Assembly (NCBI RefSeq): GCF_014306625.1
Contig: NZ_JACRYL010000024.1
Span: forward strand, 1-64,000
Source: Pedobacter fastidiosus
GTDB lineage: Bacteria; Bacteroidota; Bacteroidia; Sphingobacteriales; Sphingobacteriaceae
Length of the DNA: 64,000 nt
Reading direction: 5' to 3'
Shown: positions 33,589 through 36,830 of the stretch, in pieces
Position numbering within the stretch: position 1 is the stretch's first letter
Layout of the letters: each line of letters starts with the position of its first letter
Made by a program: the position numbers and the translations under genes
Notes under the pieces: generated by a model
Seen by the model: only the letters and a program-made list of their open reading frames with translations
Database searches by the model: none
Told to the model about the DNA's origin: nothing

Positions 33589-33942
33589 TTACCAAAAAAA
33601 ATGTTTTGGATAAAGCATTTTAAACAAACACCAATAATTGTATTTTAATCTTTTAATGAGGATTTTGGAGTTGATATTTCTATTAAATGTTTGTAGAAAT
33701 ACCAAAAATAATAAAATGAGGAATGATCCTGTAGAAATTTTTAAAGTGGTATTAGAAATGAAATCTCTTTGCAAGCTTTCATTATCCTGCTGAAAATTTG
33801 AATGCAATTTTGAAATTGCTTTGGTAGAAATGAAGCTTTCTTTATAGCCGTTATTTTTAGCATTAAATTCTTTTTTCTGCGATGCGAAACCTGCAAAATT
33901 TAATGAAATTAGCAAAAAGAAAAGGATGTAAAAAAGCCTCAT
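33589..33942 (-). CDS. Hypothetical small exported or membrane protein
   Basis: A 117-residue protein with signal-like N-terminus MRLFYILFFLLISLNFAGFA, a polar stretch, then a transmembrane helix at about 72-88 (STGSFLILLFLVFLQTF) and a basic tail. No family recognised. Oddly, its first codons lie in the left arm of a 14-bp hairpin (33930-33974) that looks like a terminator for upstream transcription. Translation would need this hairpin open or a promoter inside it. Possibly a marginal or decaying gene. Confidence 0.45.
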   Translation of the reverse strand: MRLFYILFFLLISLNFAGFASQKKEFNAKNNGYKESFISTKAISKLHSNFQQDNESLQRDFISNTTLKISTGSFLILLFLVFLQTFNRNINSKILIKRLKYNYWCLFKMLYPKHFFW

Positions 33943-33974
33943 TGCCGTAAATATAGCGAAAATGAGGCTTTTTT
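33930..33974. terminator. Hairpin over a start codon, terminator-like
   Basis: AAAAAAGCCTCATT (33930-33943) and its complement (33961-33974) form a perfect 14-bp stem with a 17-nt loop and A/T tails. On the minus strand it follows the ribF remnant and hxlR, so it probably was the ribF terminator. It also contains the ATG (33942-33940) of the small gene at 33.6 kb. Confidence 0.7.
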
Positions 33975-33998
33975 AAAAGGGAAAGTTCGTTTAAGTTG

Positions 33999-34075
33999 TT
34001 AATAAAGTTTTTTAAAATAATCTAAAGTTGCCTCTTTATCTTCATGTAATTTGAACGGAAAATGCCTCTAATTCG
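33999..34075 (-). pseudogene. Remnant of ribF 3' end
   Basis: About 63 bp here align with the 3' end of intact ribF (35748-35808), same strand, roughly 85 percent identical by eye; the shared core is TTAAAATAATCTAAAGTTGC. In the ribF frame it reads ELEAFSVQIT, a 1-nt frameshift, then EDKEATLDYFKKLY and stop, against LEALTLQLQKDKEATLDYFNQAI in RibF. It overlaps the last codons of hxlR. It marks the far side of the inserted hxlR/DUF1304 block. Confidence 0.75.
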
Positions 34076-34439
34076 ATTTATTAGTTTCTTTCGCCTGCTT
34101 AATTATTTTATGAAAAGTCTCTTTATAACTTTCTCCCCAGCCTTTCATAGCGTATAGTACTTGCAAAGCGCTTTCGCCACCTTTTGTTAATGAATATTCT
34201 ACTTTCGGAGGCAAAACACTATGAATTTTCTTCTCTACAATACCATGAAATTCAAGTTCAGAAAGTTGCTGATTCAAAACTCTTGCTGATGCTTGTGGAA
34301 TAGATTTATGCAACTCAGACGGTCGTTTTAAGCCTTTATTGATATTTGCCAGTAAATTGGCTTTCCATTTTCCGCCAATAATTTCAATGGCGATATTTAA
34401 TCCACAGGATAAATCTTTAGGTATTTTCTTCTCGTACAT
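34068..34439 (-). CDS. HxlR family transcriptional regulator
   Basis: A 123-residue winged-helix regulator. Family features are CGLNIAIEIIGGKWKANLLANI (with the leading Cys and GGKW) and LHKSIPQASARVLNQQLSELEFHGIVEKK, then PPKVEYSLT. The stop codon lies in a fragment of ribF, so the last residues may be a recombination product. It is divergent from the DUF1304 gene across a perfect 14-bp inverted repeat, the likely operator. HxlR proteins often respond to reactive electrophiles or redox changes; the signal here is unknown. Confidence 0.92.
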   Translation of the reverse strand: MYEKKIPKDLSCGLNIAIEIIGGKWKANLLANINKGLKRPSELHKSIPQASARVLNQQLSELEFHGIVEKKIHSVLPPKVEYSLTKGGESALQVLYAMKGWGESYKETFHKIIKQAKETNKSN

Positions 34440-34489
34440 TTTATGCAGTTTTTAAACCTGTAAACTTCATTAATATACGTATTTTTAAT

Positions 34490-34530
34490 GTACGGTTAAA
34501 ATTATCAGTACATGACAATTTTAACCGTAC
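34490..34530. promoter_or_regulatory. Probable HxlR operator, 14-bp inverted repeat
   Basis: GTACGGTTAAAATT (34490-34503) and its exact complement (34517-34530) flank a 13-bp spacer that carries a further GTAC. The site sits between divergent hxlR and the DUF1304 gene, as expected of an autoregulated HxlR switch. The regulator assignment is from position. Confidence 0.65.
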
Positions 34531-34586
34531 TTGTATTTAACGCATCTATGTTGAAACTTTGGCTTTAGTATAATCTACTGCAAATT

Positions 34587-35021
34587 ATGGGTTTAAGCCG
34601 GTTTACCAAAGTATTGGTTGTTTTTGTGATTTTCGATTTTTTTATGTTTTTTATTCTGGAAGCCATTTTTTGGATGCAACCTTTTGTGCATAATCTTTTG
34701 CTTACATGGTTCGATAATCCTCCGGTAAGTTTAGGTTTCGAAATGCATGCATTAGTTTTGAAAAAACTTTTTATTAACCAAGGTTTCTACAATCTTTTTT
34801 TTGCTGTTGGGGGCATTGCGGGTTTGTATCAACTAAAAGTGAATCGTAGTGTAGGTTATGCATTAATTTTGTTGGTTTGTTTTGCTGCTGTTGGAGCGGG
34901 TATGGTTTTGGCAATCACATCAAAAGCTTATTTACTCGCTACCTTGCAGGCCGTCCCAGCTGCTATAGCATTTTACAATATTTTTATCCTAACCAAACAT
35001 TATAAAACTGAAAGAAAATGA
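34587..35021 (+). CDS. DUF1304 family membrane protein
   Basis: A 144-residue inner-membrane protein with four helices. The pattern matches DUF1304: WMQPF early, then LKKLFINQGFYNLFFAVGGIAGLYQL, then a helix and a final segment with ATLQAVPAAIAF. Function of DUF1304 is unknown. The gene is divergent from hxlR and shares the operator; its stop overlaps the next gene by 4 bp (ATGA), so the two are translationally coupled. Confidence 0.85.
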   Translation: MGLSRFTKVLVVFVIFDFFMFFILEAIFWMQPFVHNLLLTWFDNPPVSLGFEMHALVLKKLFINQGFYNLFFAVGGIAGLYQLKVNRSVGYALILLVCFAAVGAGMVLAITSKAYLLATLQAVPAAIAFYNIFILTKHYKTERK

Positions 35022-35719
35022 TAGAGAAATTGCCTGTATTTATATCGATTACATTTGGGTTGATAACGCTAATAACACTTTGGCTTTTTTATAATTTGTT
35101 AAAAAAATCAACTGTTGAAAAAATTGCAAATCCTGTGTGCATAACCTTGATAATTTGGCTGGTTTTACAAGCGGTTTTAACACTTAAAGGATTTTATAAT
35201 ACCAATACTACTGTATTGCCACCAAAAATAATGCTGTTTGGGATTTTGCCAGCAATTTTTGTAATTATATTATTATTTGCAACACCCAAGGGGCGAAGAT
35301 TTATTGATGCTTTACCATTGAAAGATATTACCTACCTAAACACAATTAGACTCCCGATTGAAATTGTATTGTTTTATTTGTTTTTGAACAAGGCTGTTCC
35401 TCAGTTGATGACTTTTGAGGGGCGAAATTTTGATATTATTTCTGGTATTACCGCACCTTTTATTGCATATTTTGGTTTTACAAAACAGATGCTGAGCAGG
35501 AAATTAATTTCAGGTTGGAATTTTGTTTGCCTTATACTTTTAATAAATATAGTTGCTAATGCTTTGTTATCAGCGCCATTGGCATTTCAGCAATTTGCAT
35601 TTAACCAACCCAATATTGCAATTTTAAATTTTCCTTTTAGTTGGCTTCCAACATTTTTAGTCCCAATAGTTTTATTTGGACATTTAGTTTCAATAAGACA
35701 ACTTTTAATTGCTCGCTAA
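35018..35719 (+). CDS. Hypothetical membrane protein coupled to DUF1304 gene
   Basis: A 233-residue protein with about seven hydrophobic segments. The Arg/Lys-rich loops suggest an inner-membrane protein. A conserved-looking segment is RLPIEIVLFYLFLNKAVPQLMTFEGRNFDIISGITAPF. No family I can name. Its ATG overlaps the DUF1304 stop (ATGA) and it is the last gene of the block; ribF begins 14 bp later on the opposite strand. Probably regulated by HxlR. Confidence 0.65.
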   Translation: MIEKLPVFISITFGLITLITLWLFYNLLKKSTVEKIANPVCITLIIWLVLQAVLTLKGFYNTNTTVLPPKIMLFGILPAIFVIILLFATPKGRRFIDALPLKDITYLNTIRLPIEIVLFYLFLNKAVPQLMTFEGRNFDIISGITAPFIAYFGFTKQMLSRKLISGWNFVCLILLINIVANALLSAPLAFQQFAFNQPNIAILNFPFSWLPTFLVPIVLFGHLVSIRQLLIAR

Positions 35720-35733
35720 CAATGGCGTTTATT

Positions 35734-36729
35734 TTAAATAGCTTGATTAAAATAATCTAAAGTTGCTTCTTTATCTTTTTGTAATTGAAGGGTAAGTGCT
35801 TCTAGTCCGGTGAATTTAACATCATGACGGAGGAATTTCAGGAAATTCATTTTAATATCCTGACCATAAATTTCTTGATTGAAATCGAAAATATTAACCT
35901 CTATGTTTCTCGTCATTCCGTTTATGGTTGGGCGTTGCCCGATGTAGGCCATACCTCTATAAGTCCGAAGTCCGGAGTATGAGGCCTGAAGTGTATTTGC
36001 CGATTCTAAACCTTCTTCTCTAAATTCTGCACTCATGTCTACCGTGACAGCATAAATGCCATCGCCTGGGATAAGTTTGTAGGTTTCTTCAATAAAAATA
36101 TTTGCTGTTGGGAAGCCAATAGTTCTGCCAATTTTATCGCCTTTAATTACTCTTCCAAAAATGGAAAATGGATAACCTAAATAATCGTTGGCTAAACTTA
36201 CATCGCCCGCTAAAAGTGCCTGACGGATTTTAGTAGAACTTACGGCAACATCGTGAATATCCTGTTCCATAATTTCTTCTACCGTAAAGCCATAATGTAA
36301 TCCAGCGCTTTTTAAATCGATTAAATTGCCCGAACGATCTTTGCCAAAACGATGATCGTAGCCAATAATAATATGCTTAGTACCAATATTATCTACAAGA
36401 GTATTTTTAATATAATCTTCTGGAAACTGATTTGAAAAATCTCTTGTAAATGGTGTAATAATTAAATGATCTACACCCAAACTTTCTAAAATTTCGGCTT
36501 TTTCATTAATGGTATTGATCATTTTTAAATCCTGATTTTCAGGATCGATGATCATTCTTGGATGTGGGAAAAAAGTTAGAATGACGCTTTCTCCTTGATC
36601 GCTCTTGGCCTTTTCTACCAATTGTTTAATAATTTTTTGATGTCCAAAATGAACACCATCAAAAGTACCGATGGTTACAATTGCTTTATCTAACTTTTTA
36701 AAATCGGAAAGGTTGTTGTATATTTTCAA
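35734..36729 (-). CDS. ribF: Bifunctional riboflavin kinase / FAD synthetase
   Basis: A protein of about 331 residues that phosphorylates riboflavin to FMN and adenylylates FMN to FAD. The N-terminal nucleotidyltransferase has TIGTFDGVHFGHQKII and HIIIGYDHRFGKDR plus SSTKIR. The C-terminal kinase has GRTIGFPTANI and GMAYIGQRPT. A TTG at 36729 (MKIYNNLSDF) is chosen over the ATG at 36825, because the upstream codons fall in a terminator hairpin. The C-terminus LDYFNQAI differs from the remnant at 34.0 kb (LDYFKKLY), which hints that this tail is the replaced one. Confidence 0.94.
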   Translation of the reverse strand: MKIYNNLSDFKKLDKAIVTIGTFDGVHFGHQKIIKQLVEKAKSDQGESVILTFFPHPRMIIDPENQDLKMINTINEKAEILESLGVDHLIITPFTRDFSNQFPEDYIKNTLVDNIGTKHIIIGYDHRFGKDRSGNLIDLKSAGLHYGFTVEEIMEQDIHDVAVSSTKIRQALLAGDVSLANDYLGYPFSIFGRVIKGDKIGRTIGFPTANIFIEETYKLIPGDGIYAVTVDMSAEFREEGLESANTLQASYSGLRTYRGMAYIGQRPTINGMTRNIEVNIFDFNQEIYGQDIKMNFLKFLRHDVKFTGLEALTLQLQKDKEATLDYFNQAI

Positions 36730-36782
36730 GGGTGAAATTTTTTTAATAAACTGGGTTTTACATGAGTGATGGAAGCGATATC

Positions 36783-36830
36783 CTTTTTTGTTATTCCTTC
36801 GACAATCTTCGAATAACAATAACAAAAAAG
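36783..36830 (-). terminator. Terminator between YitT gene and ribF
   Basis: CTTTTTTGTTATT (36783-36795) pairs with AATAACAAAAAAG (36818-36830). A nested TTCG/CGAA pairing in the loop adds stability. The T-rich end faces leftward, so it stops transcription from the YitT-family gene before ribF. Confidence 0.65.

Follow-up and report, generated by a model that had tools for sequence, protein, structure and literature searches.

A three-gene block between two copies of the ribF 3′ end in Pedobacter fastidiosus: an insertion scar of gene acquisition

Organization of the locus

The window analysed is a stretch of 64 000 nucleotides of Pedobacter fastidiosus (contig NZ_JACRYL010000024.1, positions 1–64 000). 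Within it the last ~20 codons of ribF, the stop codon and a few bases of the 3′UTR are present twice in direct orientation, and these two copies of ~85 bp bracket an hxlR gene, a DUF1304 gene and a membrane-type gene. The features of the locus are as follows, the outer limits of both tail copies having been set by eye.

33589–33942, minus strand: orf117, the gene that natively follows ribF and keeps this place in relatives
33929–33975, minus strand: hairpin, native terminator-like element of ribF, with perfect arms of 15 bp; conserved in relatives; z −7.2
33990–34077, minus strand: relic ribF-tail copy, the frameshifted old native 3′ end, with the ribF-frame stop at 33999–34001
34068–34439, minus strand: hxlR-type regulator (Pfam HxlR, 1.3e-24), with its last codon(s) and stop in ribF-derived DNA
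34490–34530, no strand assigned: 18-bp inverted repeat (94%) separating the divergent genes hxlR and DUF1304, from the repeat search
34587–35021, plus strand: DUF1304 membrane-type protein gene (Pfam DUF1304, 7.7e-13)
35018–35719, plus strand: TM233, an open reading frame for a hydrophobic protein of 233 residues, overlapping DUF1304 by ATGA
35726–35813, minus strand: proximal ribF-tail copy, functional, comprising the last ~20 codons, the stop and a few UTR bases
35734–36738, minus strand: ribF, bifunctional riboflavin kinase/FAD synthetase, intact (Pfam FAD_syn, 7.6e-49; Flavokinase, 3.2e-38; NCBIfam ribF equivalogs)

The longest direct repeat returned by the repeat search was 33999–34051/35734–35786 (83% identity, spacing 1735). 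A BLAST search of the whole genome with the ribF tail gave, besides ribF itself, a single match at 34012–34070 on the same strand (86%, E = 2e-12). Both searches thus recovered the same-orientation repeat of the ribF 3′ end that had been reported in a first-pass annotation of this DNA; the extent used here (33990–34077/35726–35813) comes from alignment by eye and is wider than the limits given there. On the minus strand the relic reads LEAFSVQ-(+1)-LHEDKEATLDYFKKLY-stop, and the one-base frameshift described earlier proved to be one inserted A, followed by the stop at 33999–34001. At the 3′UTR edge of the repeat the relic has ACTTAAACG, the attached copy AATAAACG and P. yonginense ACTTAAACC; at the other edge the relic has CGAATTAGAGGC, the attached copy CGGACTAGAAGC and relatives usually CGGATTAGAAGC. 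The stop codon of hxlR is the TAG within CGAATTAGAGGC, so that hxlR now terminates in ribF-derived DNA. The ends of the block also gave an AT-rich inverted pair, which falls within the direct repeats or on their border. The two tail copies are at present 86% identical, a value in which later decay hides the state at insertion.

For ribF, a longer reading frame from a TTG at 36825 is an alternative to the start at 36738. Protein identity to P. paludis is 88% in ribF versus 97–99% in the neighbouring genes, largely because of a length-variable loop at ~35955–36045. This loop varies strongly in both length and sequence among close relatives, the remainder of the gene being well conserved. Replacement of the whole of ribF by transfer was rejected: P. 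paludis is nearest or tied nearest in every DNA block down to ~35850, and a tree of the ribF body groups P. fastidiosus with P. paludis and P. yonginense (100/99).

The module between the tails

The three genes between the copies are as first described, with HxlR and DUF1304 identified by Pfam and TM233, which matched neither Pfam nor NCBIfam, as the third. DUF1304 is present in four of the 145 genus genomes and TM233 homologues in 47 of the 145, P. fastidiosus being included in both counts. The 18-bp inverted repeat at 34490–34530 is a possible HxlR operator. A second Pedobacter genome, G059 (L264, 6375–8705), carries hxlR (protein identity 89%) and DUF1304 (83%) in the same divergent arrangement and continues with a cyclic-nucleotide-binding-type protein and a distant TM233 relative. 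That cluster is not beside ribF and has no ribF tail, and its hxlR ends a few codons earlier at a stop of its own. A short ORF resembling a truncated sensor gene adjoins it. In G127 a TM233 relative again lies close to DUF1304. Because similar groupings recur in G059 and G127, hxlR, DUF1304 and TM233 look like a recurrent small module with a predicted membrane function and an HxlR-type regulator.

Searches of the three block genes against Pfam and NCBIfam gave no integrase, in agreement with the first-pass annotation, and the block gave no transposase in the same libraries. The features of a transposon or insertion sequence are thus lacking, the duplication moreover being ~85 bp long. The GC content of the block shows no clear contrast to nearby intergenic DNA. 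A plasmid source of the module was rejected, as DUF1304 and TM233 had no match in plasmid records.

The native ribF junction

In a tree of two flanking genes P. fastidiosus grouped with P. paludis (G007) and P. yonginense (G157) (SH-aLRT 100). Most of the relatives read have the ribF stop followed, 40–64 nt on, by the hairpin and orf117; the next genes in relatives are, we assume, one for a KefB-type antiporter and then one of DUF2157 type. This is the uninterrupted ribF–terminator arrangement that had been proposed for comparison, and it was found with no block. It also bears out the earlier placing of a terminator where that of ribF would be.

In the genus genomes for which the ribF region was read, ribF is followed by its native downstream genes and the block is absent. 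No TM233 homologue lies beside ribF in the other genomes of the 145-genome set, and neither block genes nor a second ribF were found near ribF in 80 named relatives. ribF was matched in 143 of the 145 genus genomes, and double rows, where read, came from a single gene whose match was split; full ribF genes in tandem, the arrangement that had been set against an insertion, were looked for and not seen in either set. No donor in which the module is joined to a ribF end was found among the 145 genus genomes or the 80 named loci.

The relic, its 3′UTR and the hairpin are collinear with the native junction of P. paludis over 132 nt (E = 1.8e-29). By this match the relic is the original end of ribF, still at its native position and split from ribF by the block, as had been proposed for the distal copy. 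Since the junction is collinear and none of the genomes examined has the block beside ribF, a second ribF or a duplicated tail, the module was inserted, the relic being the old native end. Sequence comparison thus identifies the three-gene block as inserted DNA at the 3′ end of ribF. Here too the earlier reading held, with an empty site in relatives.

The hairpin (−20.7 kcal mol−1, z −7.2) occupies the same place behind ribF in relatives and is conserved in ~60 Pedobacter. Its loop region contains a TATATTTA box like the Bacteroidota −7 element. An apparent compensatory change from A·T to C·G is seen in four genomes (G013, G019, G023 and G024). The start codon of orf117 sits in the 3′ arm, so the hairpin is more than a terminator; it possibly combines terminator, promoter and leaderless start in one element of ~46 bp.

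Age and origin of the two tails

Aligned with its lineage, the relic shows ~4 non-synonymous and two synonymous changes as well as the frameshift, and for this reason seems to be free of selection; the attached tail shows ~1 change in 56 compared nucleotides. The relic therefore looks released from selection and decaying, and the attached tail conserved. Over the core the best match of the attached tail is P. paludis, the nearest relative (52/56 nt), and that of the relic is the attached tail (49/56). A tree of the 60-nt tails did not resolve the branching. Over the last ~105 bp of ribF P. paludis ranks ninth, a weak signal. For the last 105 nt the AU test gave p = 0.06 for the clade with P. 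paludis and P. yonginense and 0.13 for that with P. paludis alone, neither value being significant, and a foreign origin of this stretch was set aside. The last 215 nt recover the clade with both species at modest support (88/75). As the 105-nt clade is neither supported nor rejected and the 215-nt clade is recovered, no foreign replacement tail is claimed; of the earlier proposal that the block supplied such a tail, the foreign part was neither confirmed nor contradicted. The attached tail may possibly have been taken from a close relative.

At four-fold sites the observed difference from P. paludis is ~50%, and the relic branch carries only ~0.1 change per site, a rough figure that corresponds to about six changes. 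From this contrast the insertion is probably younger than the split from P. paludis, with which the empty site in that species agrees.

Insertions behind ribF in other genomes

In 21 of the 52 other genomes with orf117 behind ribF the two genes are separated by 120–813 nt. Seven of these inserts measure 730–813 nt (L034, L111, L113, L116, L122, L127 and L135), and those that were read are similar on the ribF side. A small protein of 83–94 residues is encoded in all four long inserts read for ORFs; two of the four also encode a full PIN-type protein facing ribF and a third a shorter ORF of that kind, the PIN domain being confirmed by Pfam in one insert (2.3e-15). In the long inserts read, a toxin-like PIN-domain protein and its small partner face ribF. 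Many of the shorter inserts contain palindromic repeats, as judged by eye. In insert-bearing genomes ribF is typically a few codons shorter, ending ..YFNG or ..YFNR versus, for example, ..YFESVS.

Duplicated tails at other ribF–orf117 inserts were rejected: the other inserts gave only short matches at chance level, compared with E = 6e-16 in P. fastidiosus, and none of 78 named loci has a duplicated ribF tail. Judged from these inserts, the ribF–orf117 junction is a recurrent insertion hotspot in Pedobacter; the spot tolerates insertion, and the tail duplication is, as far as seen, unique to one event. A speculative and unlikely extension is that the junction serves as a genuine landing site at which small cargo (toxin–antitoxin-like pairs, palindromic repeats and the hxlR/DUF1304/TM233 module) is taken up through a so far unrecognised process that needs no integrase and now and then copies the end of ribF.

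How the duplication may have arisen

Sequence comparison shows that a horizontally acquired module of ~1.65 kb (hxlR, DUF1304 and TM233) entered the ribF–orf117 junction, probably after the split from P. paludis, leaving ~85 bp of the ribF 3′ end on both sides. The attached copy has stayed functional; the far copy, with its own UTR and hairpin, is freed from selection and decays. The duplication would have arisen without an integrase, most likely through a single crossover of the RecA type or through one-sided homologous recombination, the partner being a molecule in which the module was joined to the ribF 3′ end of a close relative. The insertion, the native relic and its decay rest on comparison of sequences, and from these we infer the mechanism of duplication.

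We give this integrase-free homologous integration a probability of roughly 0.5. It accords with the direct duplication of a homologous gene end with no visible loss of target, with the empty site in relatives, none of the other genus genomes having the block next to ribF, with the collinearity of relic, UTR and hairpin with the native junction, with the module in G059 lying elsewhere without a ribF tail, and with a decaying relic next to a conserved attached tail. Against it, the donor was not found in the genomes searched, the attached tail has no significant foreign signal, and ~85 bp is short for homologous recombination.

As both tails look native and no donor came to light, the main rival is duplication in situ, a serious contender that we consider distinctly less probable. 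A staggered break in the ribF end, or slipped repair there, would have let the foreign DNA in, and fill-in would have copied ~85 bp of the target, making both tails native. Such an event needs no donor and would suit an attached tail closest to P. paludis, a relic closest to the attached tail and a related module in G059 without a ribF tail; ~85 bp is, however, long for the process, and the other inserts at the ribF site show no duplication.

Site-specific integration was the analogy drawn in the first-pass annotation, and it was not supported. The element would have used an attachment site at the end of ribF, replaced the tail there and lost its integrase afterwards. The geometry is the one positive point, with a direct repeat of a gene 3′ end, the gene restored and the old end left behind, but the block has no integrase, the related module in G059 (one case) lacks a ribF tail, the other inserts at ribF carry no tail copy and give no sibling use of the site, and no report of a ribF attachment site was found in the literature searched. 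We consider this route quite improbable; a direct repeat of a gene 3′ end is by itself no proof of a site-specific element. A former tandem pair of ribF genes, one of them since decayed and the block lying between the two, draws only on the general possibility of tandem duplication and is highly improbable, given that only the tail survives and that neither the 143 matching genus genomes, whose double rows were split matches in the cases read, nor the 80 named relatives offered a second ribF.

Comparison with known systems

Under integrase-free homologous integration, the closest likeness is to E. coli, where most recombinants screened for one-sided recombination were single crossovers that duplicated 109–950 bp of a gene end next to the inserted DNA (Amarir-Bouhram et al., 2011; PMC3240628). 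As at ribF, the insert is flanked by a direct duplication of the gene end, the target is kept and there is no integrase; that work used plasmids in E. coli, whereas the ribF locus is natural and its duplication ~85 bp. With its duplication and no visible loss, the ribF structure resembles this single-crossover kind. Homology-facilitated illegitimate recombination likewise has one homologous and one non-homologous end and could leave an old gene end behind, but it generally deletes target DNA (PMC3240628); the ribF locus keeps its downstream native DNA, and loss of a replaced ribF stretch would not show.

Displaced 3′ ends have been described for rhs genes, where circular intermediates were proposed for tip displacement (Jackson et al., 2009; PMC2935791), and for V. 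cholerae T6SS effectors (Kirchberger et al., 2017; PMC5361080). In these systems, as at ribF, new DNA lies behind the gene and the old 3′ end is shunted downstream; there the new tip alters the protein, whereas ribF keeps an almost unchanged end and its cargo is made up of separate genes. A direct repeat of the gene end and a restored gene are also seen with integrative elements that occupy the 3′ ends of genes for tRNAs or proteins; at ribF, by contrast, the block has no integrase, the copies are only 86% alike and no sibling element occurs.

Set beside these systems, the locus is an insertion scar of gene acquisition, a fairly ordinary but well resolved case of a known type of event. It points to a recurrent hotspot of insertion behind ribF in Pedobacter. 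It also offers a clean and roughly datable example of how a small module can settle next to a housekeeping gene without any sign of an integrase, and in it the displaced native end of ribF can still be read and now terminates another gene, hxlR.
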